Source of the DNA: an uncultured Prevotellaceae bacterium
GTDB lineage: Bacteria; Bacteroidota; Bacteroidia; Bacteroidales; Bacteroidaceae
Assembly (NCBI GenBank): GCA_902780635.1
Contig: CACZGH010000021.1
Span: 1-64,000 of the forward strand
Direction of reading: 5' to 3'
DNA length: 64,000 nucleotides
In this document: positions 2,802-56,622 of the stretch, one piece after another
How positions within the stretch are numbered: the stretch's first letter is position 1
Layout: each line of letters begins with the position of its first letter
The notes under the pieces: model-generated
The model's input: only the letters and a program-made list of their open reading frames with translations
What the model was told of the DNA's origin: nothing
Database searches by the model: none
Position numbers and translations under genes: made by a program

Positions 2802-4814
2802 ATGAATAGACGAACTGTTATTACCCTGCTCATTGCATTGACCACTCTCATGATGCATGCCCAGCTGACCGACTGGCAGAACATTTCGAGCAAGAATTTC
2901 GTGACAAAAATCATCCACGACCAGAACTTCTTGTACATCGGTACGAAGGGCGGCGGTATCGTGAAGATGGACAAGCAGAGCGGCGAACAGACGGTGCTCA
3001 AAAGGGCCGACGGCAGCATGACGGGAAACTCTATCACCGACATGGCGCTGCACGATGGCGAACTGTGGGTAGGCACAGAGTACAACGGGGTGGCGAAGGT
3101 GACTGACGACGGCATCGAGAAGTTCGACAGGAGGAACGCTGGATTCAGGAGCAACCAGCATTTTTCCGGCTTCTTTTTCAATACCGACGGGACCATGCTC
3201 GTGGGGGGTATCGCAGCTTTGTACGCTTTCGACGGAAAGAAAAGCACTGCCGTATATGACATCAACCCGCTAAGCCCCTACACCTACGTCCAAAAGATGA
3301 AGGCTGACGTCGACGGACGTATATGGGTGGCGTGCTACGATGCATTAAATATGTACAATCTCTGCATCTTCACATCCAATGATTTGATGCCGTACAACAT
3401 TCCCTATGGGAAAGTAAACAACATCGAAACTGATAAAGACGGAAGCCTGTGGATAGCAACGAACAACGGTCTCGTCAAATTAGATGGCAACGATTTCACG
3501 CACTACACGCCTGAAAATTCGGCTCTGCCTGAGGCGAACATCATCGATTTAACTGCCGACGAGAAGGGTAACCTCTGGATGCTGGGCGAACACTTTATTG
3601 CCAAGTACGACGGCACGAACTTCAAGGCCTACCCCTATCAGCTGAACGTCGCGAACGATTATCTGCTGGCCATTGATGCCGACAACGACAACGTCTATGT
3701 AGGTTCGAGCTTCGAAGGCTTACTAAAGCTCACTGACAATGGATTGCAAGCCATCCCGCTCACAGACAACCAACTCTACGACAGCGGCATTCTCTATTCC
3801 AGTGGCTGCATCGATGGAAAAGGCAACTTTTGCGCTTGCACACAAAACGGCTTCCAGACCTACAACATCGACACCGGCGAATGCCATTTTGAACCTATGG
3901 GGGTGATTGCCCAGACGGAGACCGACCGTAACGGCAACGTCTGGCTACTCTGGCCCTGGTTTGCCACCGACACCTGCCTTGTGGAAATCACAGCTACGGC
4001 TAAGAAGGCATTCATGAGAACCGACTATCCCTTCAGCGAGGCAGACGCCAGCCTTGTCAAGTTTGACCGCAAGAACCGCCTCTGGATAGCCACGAACCAT
4101 GGTCTCTACATGCGTGACGGTGAGACGTGGACAGCCTACAACAAGAGCAATTCCAGCCTTACAGAGACAGTCCAGTGCATGGCCTTCGACAGCAGCAACC
4201 GTCTCTGGTGCGGCACCTTCGGCAGCGGCCTGTTCTGCTTTGACGGCACGAAATGGAGCAACTACACCACCTCCAACACCTCTCTCCCGTCCGATTACGT
4301 GGGCACGGTGACCGTCGATAACAACAACGTCCTTTGGCTGAACTGCCGCGACCCTCGCTATCCCGACAAAATGGGCTCAGAATATGGTCTGGGGTTGACG
4401 CGCTTCGACGGAAACGCATGTACGACCTACAACCGCAACAACTCGCCGCTGCCCAGCGACTGCTTCTGGGATGTGCAGGTGGATGTCGACAACCGGAAAT
4501 GGATAGCCACCGCTGGCGATGTCGGCCTCGTCTGCTATGACGGAACAGAGTGGACGATCTATGACACTGACAACTCTGGCATCGCCCTGAATGAGGTCAC
4601 CAAAATCTCCCTCGACCCCAAACGTGACCTCATCTGGCTTACCCAGTACCCTGGCCTCGGCCTCTCCGTCGCCCGTATGAATTGCAAGACATCGAGCATA
4701 CGCCCTGTCATACACTCCAAGCAGTCGGATGTGTATTACGACTTGCAGGGCAGACTCATCAACCAACCAACTCATGGAATGTATATCACTAATAAAAAGA
4801 AAATTATCAAATAA
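2802..4814 (+). CDS. secreted beta-propeller protein (two-component-regulator propeller repeats)
   Basis: The 670-residue product has a Sec signal peptide (MNRRTVITLLIALTTLMMHAQ, cut after residue 20-21) and then repeated blades of the Reg_prop type, seen as NGLVKLDG, RLWIATNHGLYMRDG, RLWCGTFGSGLFCFDG and RKWIATAGDVGLVCYDG. In Bacteroidota these blades usually form the periplasmic sensor of hybrid two-component regulators. Here there is no Y_Y_Y domain, membrane segment, kinase or DNA-binding part. Instead the protein ends in the tail YYDLQGRL...GMYITNKKKIIK that is also found on four other secreted proteins in the window. It may bind glycans or proteins at the cell surface; its function is not known. 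Confidence 0.75.
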   Translation: MNRRTVITLLIALTTLMMHAQLTDWQNISSKNFVTKIIHDQNFLYIGTKGGGIVKMDKQSGEQTVLKRADGSMTGNSITDMALHDGELWVGTEYNGVAKVTDDGIEKFDRRNAGFRSNQHFSGFFFNTDGTMLVGGIAALYAFDGKKSTAVYDINPLSPYTYVQKMKADVDGRIWVACYDALNMYNLCIFTSNDLMPYNIPYGKVNNIETDKDGSLWIATNNGLVKLDGNDFTHYTPENSALPEANIIDLTADEKGNLWMLGEHFIAKYDGTNFKAYPYQLNVANDYLLAIDADNDNVYVGSSFEGLLKLTDNGLQAIPLTDNQLYDSGILYSSGCIDGKGNFCACTQNGFQTYNIDTGECHFEPMGVIAQTETDRNGNVWLLWPWFATDTCLVEITATAKKAFMRTDYPFSEADASLVKFDRKNRLWIATNHGLYMRDGETWTAYNKSNSSLTETVQCMAFDSSNRLWCGTFGSGLFCFDGTKWSNYTTSNTSLPSDYVGTVTVDNNNVLWLNCRDPRYPDKMGSEYGLGLTRFDGNACTTYNRNNSPLPSDCFWDVQVDVDNRKWIATAGDVGLVCYDGTEWTIYDTDNSGIALNEVTKISLDPKRDLIWLTQYPGLGLSVARMNCKTSSIRPVIHSKQSDVYYDLQGRLINQPTHGMYITNKKKIIK

Positions 4815-51612: not shown

Positions 51613-54600
51613 ATGAAAACGATCCCTACTCAGACGCGTCACCTCCTCGGCTGTTGCCTCCTCTGCTTGGCAACATTCTTGTTGACGGCCTGCAACCAGG
51701 CCGGCAAAGCGCGGACAGACCAGCTGAACGAGTTGTCGTATATCTTTCATTATCGCAATCTTGACTCCACATTGTACTATGCCGAGCAGTCTATCATCGC
51801 GGCTCAAAAATGCAGGTATGATGGTGGCTATGCCGAGGCTCTTAACAACAAGGCATTTGTCAGCATCGCACGGATGCAATATGACCAGGCGTTCAGACAA
51901 CTCGACTCCGTGGCTGCATCGACAGACGATCAGATAGAGTTGCTGGTCTCCGACATACAGTATATGCGCCTCTGCCAGCGTATGTCGAAAAACAAAGACT
52001 TCTACAATTATAGAGAGAATGCCCTTCAAAGACTCAAGAGGATAGAGGAAGAGGAGCACACCCTCGACCAGCACCAGAGAATGAGAATGACATACGCCAG
52101 GTCAGAGCTCAACATCGTCACGTCTACCTACTATTATTATATAGGTCTGGAGGAACCCTCCATCCAGGCTATCCTCAATATCAATCCCGATGGCGAGATC
52201 AAGGCCGACACGGCACAGTGGCTCAACTATCTTTATAATGTGGGAGCAGGTGGTATCGTCACACAAGGCTCACAGGAGGAGATCAACCAGATAGAGATGG
52301 ACCACCTCTTCCAGTGTTATTCCATGTCTGTGCAGTATGGCTATATCTTCTGGACTGCCAACTCGCTACAGGCCATCAGCGAACATCTGCAAACACCCAA
52401 ATACCGCGACCGCCTCATCGCCGACAACTGGTCGTCGTTCACAATCCTTGATGTGGACAATGTGCCTGACAGCCTCTTGGCCGGAAGTCTGGCTCAACGC
52501 TCTCTCGACATGTTTTCTGAGTACGGAGATGTCTACCAGACAGCAGGAGCTTTCCGCACCTTGGCGCAGTGTTATTGGACCATCAATGACTACAATGCAT
52601 CGCTCGAATACCTCAATGAGGCACTCTCCAACGACAGCGCGATTTTTCAGGCGCCCGACCTCGTCGCGTCGATTCGTGAACAGCTCAGCGTGGTCTACGC
52701 CGCCATCGACGACCATGCTGCCAGCGACTATAATCGCAAACTCTATCTTGAGAAACAAGACCAGACCCGCCAAGACCGCTATTTCGAGTCGAGAGCAGAG
52801 CAACTAAGGCATTCTGTCAACCAGCTCAACGGTATGATCGGCGCCATCATCGTTCTCATGATTGTGGGACTCTTGCTCCTCTTCTTTTTCAGTTACTGGA
52901 GAAAGAGAGACTCCAAGAAAAACGAACTCGATCAACTCCTCCTGCCACTGGAGAAGTGGAAGCACGACAACGAACAGTATGCCGAGCAGCTCAATGACCA
53001 GTATGAGGAGGCGGAAGAGAAGAAAAACGTGGCCTATATACGACTGCAAAAAAACAAACGCTTCAACCTGGAGCAAAGGGCCAAAATATCCATCGTCAAT
53101 GGCGTCACGCCTTTCATAGACCGTATCCTCCATGAGATCAGCCGACTGAGAAACCTTCATGAGTCTGAAGAGGTGAGACAAGAGCGGTATCAATACATCG
53201 CGGAACTTTCTGACAGAATCAACGACCACAATGTGATGCTCACTCAGTGGATACAGCTACGGCAGGGAGAGCTGAGCCTTCATATTGAGAGTTTCCCCCT
53301 CCAGCCCCTCTTCGACATCGTCTCACATGCCAGAATGGGGTTTGTCATGAAAAACATCCATCTGACCATCAAACCCACCGACCTCTGGGTGAAGGCCGAC
53401 CGGACGCTGACCCTCTTCATGATCAACACCATCGCGGACAACGCCCGTAAATTCACACCCGAAAACGGAACCGTCACTATCGAGGCTCTGGAGGCCGACA
53501 AGTATGTCGAGATCGCTATCAGCGACAACGGCATGGGCATGACACAGGAGCAGATAGAAAAGGCGTTCAGCGTGGAGAAAAAGGCGGTGGCCGACGAGGC
53601 TCTCCAGAAAAACACGGGTGCGGTGACAGAGCGCAGTCATGGATTCGGACTGGTCAACTGCAAGGGCATTATCGAGAAATATAAAAAGGTCAGTTCGCTC
53701 TTCAATGTCTGCGACATCTCCGTGCAAAGCAAAGTGGGGGAGGGCAGCAGGTTCGCATTCCGTCTGCCCAGAGGCATTGCCAGGGCGTTGATGCTGCTCG
53801 TGGCAGTATGTGGCTCGTTGACCGTTAGCGCGGCACCGGTGGAGGATGAGTCGGAGGCATTGCTCAGACAAGCGGAGTTGTATGCCGACAGCACCGTTGT
53901 CAGCAACCGCAGAAACGACTATCACGCCACCTTGCAATATGCCGACTCTGCCATCAGATATCTCAACAAGAACTATCGGCTTAACCGGCCTAATGCAAAG
54001 GATACACTGGTGTCGGTCAGTGGAAAATCAGTGCTCCTGCCCGAGGTCAACTGGTATCATGACAAAATAGACATGGACTATCAGGTCATCCTCACCGTGC
54101 GAAATGGGTCGGCTGTCGCTGCTTTGGCATTGCATCAGTGGGACATCTACAGATACAACAACAAAGTCTATACGCAGCTGTTCAAGGAGATGTCGGCCGA
54201 TAACACCCTGGAAGACTACTGCCGTGTCATGCAGGAGTCGCAGAGCAACAAAATGGTGGCCATCATCATCCTGGTCATTCTTGCCATCCTCATCTTGCTG
54301 GCCTACTTCTTGCTCTACTACAGGCATCATGTCTACTATCGGTTCTGTATCGAAAAAGTCAGAGACGTCAACCAGATCCTGCTCTCCGAACAGACAGATG
54401 AGCGTAAACTGCAGCAGATAGAGCGAATCGCACAGCTCGACAGCCGCTCAGGCGGCGCAAAGAAAAAGCCGGTAGGCTATGACGACGAACGGCTGCCCGT
54501 GCCGCTGCAGTCTATCGTAGACCAAATCCTGCAAACACTGAGAAAGAACATGGCTTTCAACCAACAGCAGAAGTCGAAAATCAGTCTGGTGGAGGATGAG

Positions 54601-55245
54601 GTGAGAAAGGTGCATTTCGAGGACAGTCGTCTGCATGTCTGCAACAGTGTGCTCGACAATTGTCTCAGCACCCTCAAGCATGAGACGATGTACTATCCTT
54701 CCCGAATCAGAATGCTGGTCAACGGGGGTGATGACAACCTGGAAATCACCAGTGAGACCGCGTCGTATTATAAAGAACTCTATACCGTGCTGAGCGCACA
54801 AGCCATGAGGCAGGTGCGAAGCGTGGAGCCAGAGTGCAAGCCTGTCAGGCTCGGCAGCCTGGACCTCTCCCTGCGGAGTCAGGATGACAAGGACATCTAT
54901 GTGCTGGGCGATCCCGTCATGATCGATTATCTTTTTGAAATCCTTAAAAAGCAGGCTGGCGTCAGAAAACTCGAGGTGGAGAACGTGAAAAAACACGACG
55001 GCTACGTCAGTATCTGCATCGCGCTCCCCCATATCTCTCTGACAGAACAGGAATGCCTGGACCTCTTCAATCCCACCATGGACAACCTGCCTTATCTGCT
55101 GTGCCGGCAGATTATCAGAGACGCAGGAGAGGTGAGCAACTCAAGAGGATGCGGCATGATAGCTGAAAAAGCGGATAAGGGCATCCGCATCAGGGTGACC
55201 ATGGCCCAGGCCAGAAAGTCAGAGCCCCGCACCGCCAACCCCTAA
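51613..55245 (+). CDS. double-module membrane sensor histidine kinase-like protein
   Basis: The 1,210-residue protein starts with a lipoprotein-like signal (CLLCLATFLLTAC, Cys near 27). Module 1: periplasmic TPR-like helices (about 35-400), membrane segment 408-430, coiled coil, a His 507 box (RILHEISRLRN) and a good ATPase domain (N-box NTIADNARKFT at 605, DNGMGM at 638, GFGLVN at 677). Module 2: a second membrane segment (about 725-742, cut-site-like VSAAPVE), a short outside part, a third membrane segment 881-903, and a second cytoplasmic kinase-like part with His 1023 (LKHETMYYPSRI) but a decayed ATPase. I believe these are the Pfam DUF5112/DUF5113 regions. A response regulator follows 44 bp later. 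The signal is unknown. Confidence 0.75.
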   Translation: MKTIPTQTRHLLGCCLLCLATFLLTACNQAGKARTDQLNELSYIFHYRNLDSTLYYAEQSIIAAQKCRYDGGYAEALNNKAFVSIARMQYDQAFRQLDSVAASTDDQIELLVSDIQYMRLCQRMSKNKDFYNYRENALQRLKRIEEEEHTLDQHQRMRMTYARSELNIVTSTYYYYIGLEEPSIQAILNINPDGEIKADTAQWLNYLYNVGAGGIVTQGSQEEINQIEMDHLFQCYSMSVQYGYIFWTANSLQAISEHLQTPKYRDRLIADNWSSFTILDVDNVPDSLLAGSLAQRSLDMFSEYGDVYQTAGAFRTLAQCYWTINDYNASLEYLNEALSNDSAIFQAPDLVASIREQLSVVYAAIDDHAASDYNRKLYLEKQDQTRQDRYFESRAEQLRHSVNQLNGMIGAIIVLMIVGLLLLFFFSYWRKRDSKKNELDQLLLPLEKWKHDNEQYAEQLNDQYEEAEEKKNVAYIRLQKNKRFNLEQRAKISIVNGVTPFIDRILHEISRLRNLHESEEVRQERYQYIAELSDRINDHNVMLTQWIQLRQGELSLHIESFPLQPLFDIVSHARMGFVMKNIHLTIKPTDLWVKADRTLTLFMINTIADNARKFTPENGTVTIEALEADKYVEIAISDNGMGMTQEQIEKAFSVEKKAVADEALQKNTGAVTERSHGFGLVNCKGIIEKYKKVSSLFNVCDISVQSKVGEGSRFAFRLPRGIARALMLLVAVCGSLTVSAAPVEDESEALLRQAELYADSTVVSNRRNDYHATLQYADSAIRYLNKNYRLNRPNAKDTLVSVSGKSVLLPEVNWYHDKIDMDYQVILTVRNGSAVAALALHQWDIYRYNNKVYTQLFKEMSADNTLEDYCRVMQESQSNKMVAIIILVILAILILLAYFLLYYRHHVYYRFCIEKVRDVNQILLSEQTDERKLQQIERIAQLDSRSGGAKKKPVGYDDERLPVPLQSIVDQILQTLRKNMAFNQQQKSKISLVEDEVRKVHFEDSRLHVCNSVLDNCLSTLKHETMYYPSRIRMLVNGGDDNLEITSETASYYKELYTVLSAQAMRQVRSVEPECKPVRLGSLDLSLRSQDDKDIYVLGDPVMIDYLFEILKKQAGVRKLEVENVKKHDGYVSICIALPHISLTEQECLDLFNPTMDNLPYLLCRQIIRDAGEVSNSRGCGMIAEKADKGIRIRVTMAQARKSEPRTANP

Positions 55246-55289: not shown

Positions 55290-56015
55290 ATGGAACAGTT
55301 TAAAGTCATTATTGTAGAAGACGTCGCACTGGAACTGAAAGGTACTGAGGGTATCATCAGAAACGACATCCCAGAGGCCAACGTCATAGGCACCGCCAAT
55401 AGCGAGGCTTCATACTGGAAATTGCTGAAACAGCAGTTGCCCGACCTGGTACTGCTCGACTTGGGTCTGGGAGGCTCCACCACCGTGGGGGTGGAAATCT
55501 GCCGACAGACCAAGGAGATGTATCCCAAAATCAAAGTGCTCATCTTCACCGGTGAGATACTCAACGAGAAACTATGGGTCGACGTGCTCGACGCCGGAGC
55601 CGACGGTATCATCCTGAAAACCGGTGAACTGCTCACACGGGGCGATGTGTTCAGCGTCATGAGTGGCAAGAGGCTTGTCTTCAACCAGCCCATTCTAGAG
55701 AAGATCGTCGAGCGTTTCAAATACAGTGTGGGTAGCCAACTGATGCGGCAGGAAGCCCTCGTCGATTATGAGATCGACGAATATGACGAGCGCTTCTTAC
55801 GCCACTTGGCATTGGGATATACCAAAGAGCAGATCACCAATCTTAGGGGGATGCCCTTCGGCGTGAAAAGTCTTGAAAAGCGACAGAACGAACTGATACA
55901 GAAGCTCTTCCCCAATGGCAACCGAGGAATGGGCATCAATGCTACCAGACTGGTGGTCAGGGCTTTGGAACTCAGAATCATCGATGTGGACAACCTGCAT
56001 GCCGACGATGAATAA
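55290..56015 (+). CDS. response regulator with atypical output domain
   Basis: The 241-residue protein has a receiver domain (residues 4-125): acidic pair Glu 10-Asp 11, phospho-acceptor Asp 57 (LVLLDLGLGG), Thr in LIFTGE and Lys in IILKTGE. Residues 150-235 are helical with FLRHLALGYTKEQITN and GVKSLEKRQNELIQKLF, which recalls the LuxR/NarL helix-turn-helix (KEIAxxL...VKxHxxxIxxKL), but the recognition helix is changed. I take it to be a DNA-binding domain, possibly one with its own DUF. It is the natural partner of the upstream kinase and overlaps the next gene by 8 bp. Confidence 0.8.
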   Translation: MEQFKVIIVEDVALELKGTEGIIRNDIPEANVIGTANSEASYWKLLKQQLPDLVLLDLGLGGSTTVGVEICRQTKEMYPKIKVLIFTGEILNEKLWVDVLDAGADGIILKTGELLTRGDVFSVMSGKRLVFNQPILEKIVERFKYSVGSQLMRQEALVDYEIDEYDERFLRHLALGYTKEQITNLRGMPFGVKSLEKRQNELIQKLFPNGNRGMGINATRLVVRALELRIIDVDNLHADDE

Positions 56016-56622
56016 AGAGAAGATCACCACATGGCTCGCACTCCTCACGGTAGGCTTGCTCGCTGCACAGGCACTGCTGTTTTTGGTGTCATGGCTCGTC
56101 ACGGCCATGAGGCCCGACACAGCCATGCACTCTCTCCTGAGCAGTGAGGGTATCAGGTGGTTTTTCGGCTCTTTCGTCGGCAATGTGGCTTCACCGTTAT
56201 TGGTATGGATCTTGGTCCTCGCCATGGCGTTCAGTGTCATGGCAGACACCCGGCTTCTCCAAGACATCAGACATCTCGCCGCATTGCCTTACCGCCCCCG
56301 GTTTGCACTCCAGTTTGTGGCTTTCGAACTTTTCCTTTTCATCGTCGTCGTCGTCATCTCGGCACTCGTGCCTCATGCACCCTTGCTCAGTGTCACAGGA
56401 CAGCTCTTCCCAAGCAGTTTCAGCAGAAGCCTGATACCTATGATTGCCTTCTGCGTCATCCTGATGTCTGTCACCTATGGCCTTCTGTCGGGCAAGATGA
56501 AGTCATGGGATGAAGCGTTTCTGTCCATCACCCGGGGGGTGAGTCGAGTGGCTCCTCTGATATTGGTGTATATCGTCGCTGCCGAATTGTTCTGTTCCCT
56601 GATGTACGTCTTCGGAACATAA
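56008..56622 (+). CDS. small membrane protein resembling part of an AbgT transporter
   Basis: ATG 56008 overlaps the response regulator stop; a longer frame from 55915 would lie inside that gene. The 204-residue protein has five membrane segments (about 7-30, 50-75, 97-120, 132-152, 180-200). The stretch SLLSSEGIRWFFGSFVGN, followed by a hydrophobic segment, resembles the early part of AbgT-family transporters, which are about 500 residues and have a LLxPEGIRW element. The rest of such a carrier is absent. It may be a membrane partner of the kinase. The function is unknown. Confidence 0.65.
   Translation: MNKEKITTWLALLTVGLLAAQALLFLVSWLVTAMRPDTAMHSLLSSEGIRWFFGSFVGNVASPLLVWILVLAMAFSVMADTRLLQDIRHLAALPYRPRFALQFVAFELFLFIVVVVISALVPHAPLLSVTGQLFPSSFSRSLIPMIAFCVILMSVTYGLLSGKMKSWDEAFLSITRGVSRVAPLILVYIVAAELFCSLMYVFGT

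Follow-up and report, generated by a model that had tools for sequence, protein, structure and literature searches.

A two-module membrane sensor kinase of Prevotellaceae with intact ATPase motifs and an invariant histidine in different modules

The kinase gene, its regulator and their homologs

We analyzed a window of 64,000 nucleotides from an uncultured Prevotellaceae bacterium (assembly GCA_902780635.1, contig CACZGH010000021.1, positions 1 to 64,000 of the forward strand), in which one long frame encodes a sensor histidine kinase and is followed by the gene of a response regulator. The original prediction, made from the sequence alone, had described a single chain with two membrane modules and a second, decayed kinase part, and had tentatively assigned its regions to DUF5112 and DUF5113. 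The two membrane modules were borne out, and Pfam agreed with the assignment at scores above the curated cut-offs (DUF5112, 355.4 bits; DUF5113, 188.5 bits). His507, His1023 and a hydrophobic stretch at residues 725-742 were also found at the positions given for them. The features are listed below; each kinase part consists of a dimerization and histidine phosphotransfer (DHp) domain and a catalytic and ATP-binding (CA) domain, and TM denotes a transmembrane helix.

51613-55245 (+), whole kinase frame, open for 1210 residues
51613-51690 (+), N-terminal lipoprotein signal, residues 1-26, with lipobox LLTA-C27, read by eye from the translation
51718-52515 (+), DUF5112, periplasmic sensor part, residues 36-301 (Pfam, E 2.5e-106)
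52639-52902 (+), incomplete DUF5113 in module 1, residues 343-430, a second Pfam match, homologous to the module 2 part
52846-52914 (+), TM1, running from outside to inside at roughly residues 412-434, hydrophobic core with a median of 20 residues
53053-53256 (+), DHp1, spanning the modeled helices at about residues 481-548, without a conserved histidine; His507 codon at 53131-53133
53419-53772 (+), CA1, with intact ATPase motifs N610, D638-x-G640-x-G642 and G677-F-G679 (Pfam HATPase_c, residues 603-720, E 4.8e-14)
53770-53835 (+), internal signal-peptide-like stretch, residues 720-741, candidate cut after Ala740 (site chosen by the analyst)
53854-54324 (+), DUF5113 of module 2, taken as periplasmic, residues 748-904 (Pfam, E 1.1e-55)
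54253-54318 (+), TM3, running from outside to inside at roughly residues 881-902, followed by basic residues on the inner side
54610-54822 (+), DHp2, with invariant His1023 (KHETMYYP); His codon at 54679-54681
54838-55212 (+), CA2, taken as a pseudo-ATPase, fold kept and ATP motifs broken
55290-56015 (+), response regulator: receiver (D57, T87, K110) and DUF5932, LuxR-like by eye (Pfam, above cut-off)

The gene is laid out as two consecutive TPR/DUF5113–TM–DHp–CA units with complementary losses, and the two modules are homologous to each other (E 9.3e-18). It is likely, taking the explanation as a whole, that the gene arose when a TPR-sensor histidine kinase was duplicated in tandem and that the copies came to share out the work. 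The signal, the membrane helices and the Pfam matches suggest that both modules sense through periplasmic TPR-like domains; compared by sequence with solved structures, the N-terminal sensor gave a single match, an engineered TPR protein, at E 0.11. The N-terminal lipobox pattern was present in 104 of the 119 rows that cover the region, the window included. Pfam matches of the chain up to E 1 included no Response_reg, and a hybrid histidine kinase was rejected for want of a receiver in the chain. No Hpt domain was found among the Pfam matches either, and the putative acceptor is part of a helical hairpin, with a CA fold after it, rather than of a CheA/Hpt-type domain.

We compared the gene with 80 loci from Prevotellaceae, the best of at least 575 confirmed matches, and with a further 118 loci. 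The latter come from 117 of 119 other genomes of the family with a match, and the first 40 of these loci span 25 genera including that of the window. Residues were counted over 199 aligned rows or over earlier subsets of 121, 179 and 178 rows, the last being the set on the tree used for position 507. Both halves formed a single open frame in 198 of 198 homologs, nine of which end at a contig edge yet span the junction. A frameshift joining two genes, raised by the original prediction as what might undo it, and an assembly artefact were therefore rejected. Nor is the chain an oddity of its source genome, since DUF5113 occurs in 120 of the 151 family genomes sampled. In 198 genomes sampled from the order, those outside the family gave the following matches above the cut-off: for DUF5113 one frame of 695 residues, for DUF5112 matches to its first quarter in four genomes, and for DUF5932 one marginal match (28.2 bits).

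The regulator had been missed by the original prediction. Among the first 120 loci, 116 extend 900 bases or more past the kinase, and 114 of those have the regulator directly downstream in the same orientation; in L142 and L143 (genus g30) it is present on another contig. Its 115 homologs retain E10 and D11 (114/114 covered rows), D57 (113/114), and T87 and K110 (115/115), and the LuxR-like C-terminal part is strongly conserved. The regulator was found in 121 of the 151 family genomes, these being the 120 that bear the kinase and G100, in which a second search again did not find DUF5113. It is a single-copy gene in 120 of these 121 genomes, and the exception, G085, carries two copies of both kinase and regulator. 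Gene order and co-occurrence thus follow the pattern of a dedicated pair. Genera g7, g11, g12, g15 and g26, along with G050 and G088 of g24, comprise listed genomes that have neither kinase nor regulator. This common absence points to joint loss, and these lineages form a natural reference group for learning which functions the system controls.

ATPase and putative acceptor residues of the two modules

We followed the ATP-binding residues of both CA domains through the 199 rows. N610, D638, G640, G642, G677 and G679 of CA1 were present in every row, leaving the N, G1 and G2 boxes intact. At the six aligned positions of CA2, 94 rows retained none of these residues, 42 retained one, 56 two and seven three; no row keeps more than three, in agreement with the decay of the second module as predicted, while CA2 retains the CA fold despite its broken motifs. 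Residues 1164-1182 of CA2 have a strongly conserved pattern of their own (CRQI/CKQI and RGC), which probably reflects a binding role. The shortest frames, L249 and L250 (G038 and G124; genus g10), have 988 residues and keep both modules and His1023; the CA2 stretch of L249 is visibly shortened.

The putative acceptor followed the opposite course. K1022, H1023, E1024, Y1028 and P1029 were each found in 199 of 199 rows, and H1023 was the sole invariant histidine across residues 435-722 and 906-1200. Position 507 carries histidine in 79 rows and asparagine in 90, and went through 28 state changes on the 178-row tree. Module 1 therefore has an intact CA domain but no conserved acceptor histidine, and the invariant one sits in module 2: by residue conservation, ATPase and acceptor are retained in different units and each is lost in the other, as in a split kinase. 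The original prediction had proposed an internal pair in which the intact ATPase acts on either His507 or His1023; its action on the second half is supported as possible, and the variability of position 507 speaks against the alternative acceptor.

We consider it likely that the chain is a divided kinase in which CA1 phosphorylates His1023 and the phosphate then passes to the DUF5932 regulator. Module 1 would keep a working ATPase and no longer need a phosphoacceptor, and module 2 would keep the acceptor in DHp2 beside a CA2 that has lost its ATP motifs. DHp1 and DHp2 would pair as two halves of one dimer, within which the complementary conservation suggests transfer from CA1 to His1023; gene order and co-occurrence suggest Asp57 of the regulator as the next acceptor, and the phosphorylated regulator would be expected to change transcription. 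The internal signal-peptide-like stretch would export the second sensor, after which the chain would probably be cut into two subunits. The top coupled pairs between DHp1 and DHp2, I505-T1049 and I509-A1050, are at similar heights on the hairpins, a placement expected of an alpha1-alpha2' contact and a weak hint at pairing of the two domains.

A number of observations do not sit well with this division of labor. E508 is largely kept (186/199 rows), which is not fully explained. The coupling analysis is noisy, with an effective number of sequences (Neff) of 139, and some of its strongest pairs, around G709, D534 and K1113, are implausible. Just one of four between-module helix pairs reached significance (uncorrected p of 0.005 with the top 20 pairs and 0.053 with the top 10), and within-module helix pairs reached p ~0.04 for the top 20 and nothing at the top 10. 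The register of DHp1 is also unsure: the residue opposite His1023 is 506-507 by extrapolated module comparison, about 493-497 by extrapolated structure ranges, and P500 by alignment to a hidden Markov model (HMM). This mapping onto known kinases is ambiguous, and we therefore make no claim on which residue replaced the acceptor. Furthermore, seven of ten second halves, picked for a kept G1 Asp, exceed the HATPase_c cut-off; in the rows inspected, however, the N box has Glu or some other residue in place of its catalytic Asn, and G1 has lost its glycines. The loss of function in CA2 is thus not certain.

Two other accounts of the conserved residues were weighed against the divided kinase. Module 1 could be an ordinary kinase acting on His507 of its own DHp1, with module 2 as a regulatory relic, and both the His507 of the window and the retained E508 would suit this; position 507 is not histidine in 120 of 199 rows, however, and its 28 changes contrast with a His1023 that is never lost, making this account very improbable. 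Phosphorylation of module 2 in trans by another kinase, with CA1 serving a different partner, has a precedent in CheA3/CheA4, split kinases known to act in trans (PMC3591291). Here, however, both modules belong to one gene in all 198 homologs and the regulator is almost always a single-copy gene, and we give this account very little probability as well.

The internal signal-peptide-like stretch

The junction between CA1 and the second DUF5113 begins after an LP at the end of CA1 and continues with basic residues, a short hydrophobic core and a cut-site-like ending, in most rows of the signal peptidase I kind. The original prediction had rightly called residues 725-742 signal-like, but had missed the behavior expected of a cleavable signal and the candidate cut site. 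The median core length of the internal stretch was 12 residues, compared to 20 for TM1 and 16 for TM3 in 121 rows (12, 20 and 18, respectively, in 199 rows), and its best 19-residue hydropathy was 1.70, compared to 3.09 for TM1 and 2.78 for TM3 (121 rows). SusC-like proteins are a family exported with signal peptides. As controls, 20 SusC-like N-termini of the same genome had a core of 15.5 and a hydropathy of 1.75, their starts having been set by script at the Met before the strongest core, a choice that favors signal-like pieces. The N-terminal lipoprotein signals of the kinases themselves, taken from 113 of them, had a core of 15; if anything, the internal cores are shorter than those of genuine signal peptides.

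The end of the core was examined for cleavage sites. The pattern [AVSTG]xA occurred near it in 68 of 121 internal stretches, 1 of 121 TM1, 5 of 121 TM3 and 11 of 20 SusC-like N-termini, and a lipobox was found at the internal stretch in 21 of 121 rows, compared to 7.6 in shuffles. By the analyst's reading there were 34 lipoboxes in 179 rows, and 35 in 199 with the last rows added; in these rows a Ser/Asp/Asn-rich stretch resembling a lipoprotein tether often follows. The stretch thus has the short hydrophobic core and the small-x-small site or lipobox of a substrate of signal peptidase I or II. On FastTree trees, which have many weak forks, the site changed between the lipobox type and the signal peptidase I-like type at least 10 times with the analyst's 34 rows, and six times on a smaller tree. 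A regular expression also gave 34 lipobox rows, a different set, with 18 changes against a mean of 31.4 for shuffled labels; the types do cluster on the tree. It is difficult to account for such repeated changes from one signal peptidase to another at a single site if cutting is of no importance.

The internal stretch looks more like a cleavable signal peptide than like a membrane helix. It probably exports the second sensor and is cut to give two subunits at a fixed 1:1 ratio, which we hold to be less certain than the division of labor. The chain would then be a polyprotein kinase, cut by signal peptidase I or II into an obligate two-subunit enzyme of ATP-user and acceptor-holder, in which the cut is kept while its type (lipobox or AxA) switches and in which cutting could serve as a checkpoint of assembly or signaling; we put the chances of this fuller proposal at about even. 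Other results argue against a cut. Shuffled c-regions still passed a strict test for pattern or lipobox in 70.6 of 121 cases, compared to 100 observed, and a loose cleavage pattern in 99.2 of 121, compared to 115 observed, so that motif patterns alone are weak; the weight rests on core length, hydropathy, lipobox recurrence and the comparison with membrane helices. Substrates of signal peptidase I in Bacteroidetes have Gln directly after the cut, the Q-rule (PMC5837995); the same paper indicates that inner-membrane proteins were left outside its pyroglutamate test. Gln stood at this position in 42 of 164 non-lipobox rows, in 2 and 0 of 199 membrane helices taken as controls and in 17 of 20 SusC-like signal peptides, but not in the protein of the window.

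The divided kinase could also work as one polypeptide with three membrane passes, the stretch at 725-742 being an uncleaved signal anchor. The ever-present single frame (198/198), the low share of rows obeying the Q-rule beside the SusC-like signal peptides, the permissiveness of the cleavage pattern tests on their own and a Pro close behind the candidate site in the window all favor an uncut chain. The core length and hydropathy, however, are nearer those of signal peptides than those of TM1, the hydropathy is likewise nearer theirs than that of TM3, and lipoboxes recur at the same place with repeated changes of type; we regard an uncut chain as a real possibility, somewhat short of an even chance. 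An internal start codon might also yield free module 2 beside the fused chain, and module 2 does begin with a signal-peptide-like stretch, like an independent gene. Met, however, lies at or just before the core in just 41 of 121 rows (GTG and TTG were outside the count) and the frame runs on in all 198 homologs; a conserved internal ATG restart is not supported, and free module 2 seems a highly unlikely product.

Related systems and neighboring genes

Cytochrome b-c1 of Bradyrhizobium is made from FbcH, a polyprotein in which signal peptidase cleaves at an internal signal sequence, so that one gene gives two membrane proteins. FbcH is unlike the present kinase in being respiratory rather than signaling and in having unrelated halves. 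DivL is a histidine-kinase relative without the usual acceptor histidine, a separate protein that modulates another kinase. It was the top match of module 1 (4q20) when the models were compared with known structures by VIA-align; here, in contrast, the pseudo-DHp is joined both to a second module and to a CA domain whose motifs are intact.

CheA-type split kinases are encoded on separate genes as CheA3/CheA4 of Rhodobacter sphaeroides, neither of which autophosphorylates alone (PMC3591291), and as Hik36/Hik43 of Synechocystis (PMC7656254). They are alike in having the ATP-using part and the phosphoacceptor in different units, and differ from the present case of two DHp-type membrane kinases in one gene, joined by tandem duplication with a signal-peptide-like junction between them. 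A survey of domain layouts names proteins of the types HK1-RR-HK2 and HK1-RR1-HK2-RR2 (histidine kinase, HK; response regulator, RR; PMC4558063), which likewise have two kinase regions per chain; those carry receivers, whereas the present chain has none among its Pfam matches and has a second signal and membrane module between its kinases. Pfam assigns no function to DUF5112, DUF5113 or DUF5932, for which chain and regulator score above the curated cut-offs, and a full-text literature search for the three names found no paper. Neither a divided DHp-type kinase encoded by a single gene nor a kinase polyprotein was found described in the literature searched, outside which most subscription journals lie. 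Two kinase domains in one chain brought up two papers, both on other subjects to judge from their titles, and the top-ranked matches for internal signal peptides with bacterial polyproteins or kinases held nothing apt.

The pair is a two-component system found throughout a family of gut, rumen and oral bacteria. If the proposed division is true, it would be a natural case of subfunctionalization after duplication within one gene, with a built-in asymmetric kinase dimer that helps to tell phosphorylation in cis from that in trans, and control of kinase activity from control of phosphatase activity. Should the internal signal peptide be cut as well, one gene may suffice for a two-subunit sensor kinase, made by way of a polyprotein.

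The frame of a small membrane protein (55915-56622, +), whose real start may be close to 55996, overlaps the regulator gene at its end and gave a weak AbgT match (25.0 bits, cut-off 27). It lies downstream in 94 of the 118 loci searched and may belong to the operon as its third gene. Elsewhere in the window, a protein of 670 residues (2802-4814, +) has two-component regulator propeller repeats by Pfam and no kinase part, and is perhaps a cut or reduced relative of hybrid sensors. It lies near a GH106 rhamnosidase, and the region at 5647-25715 encodes plant-polysaccharide enzymes (GH106, GH2, GH28 and a GDSL lipase), as in a utilization region.

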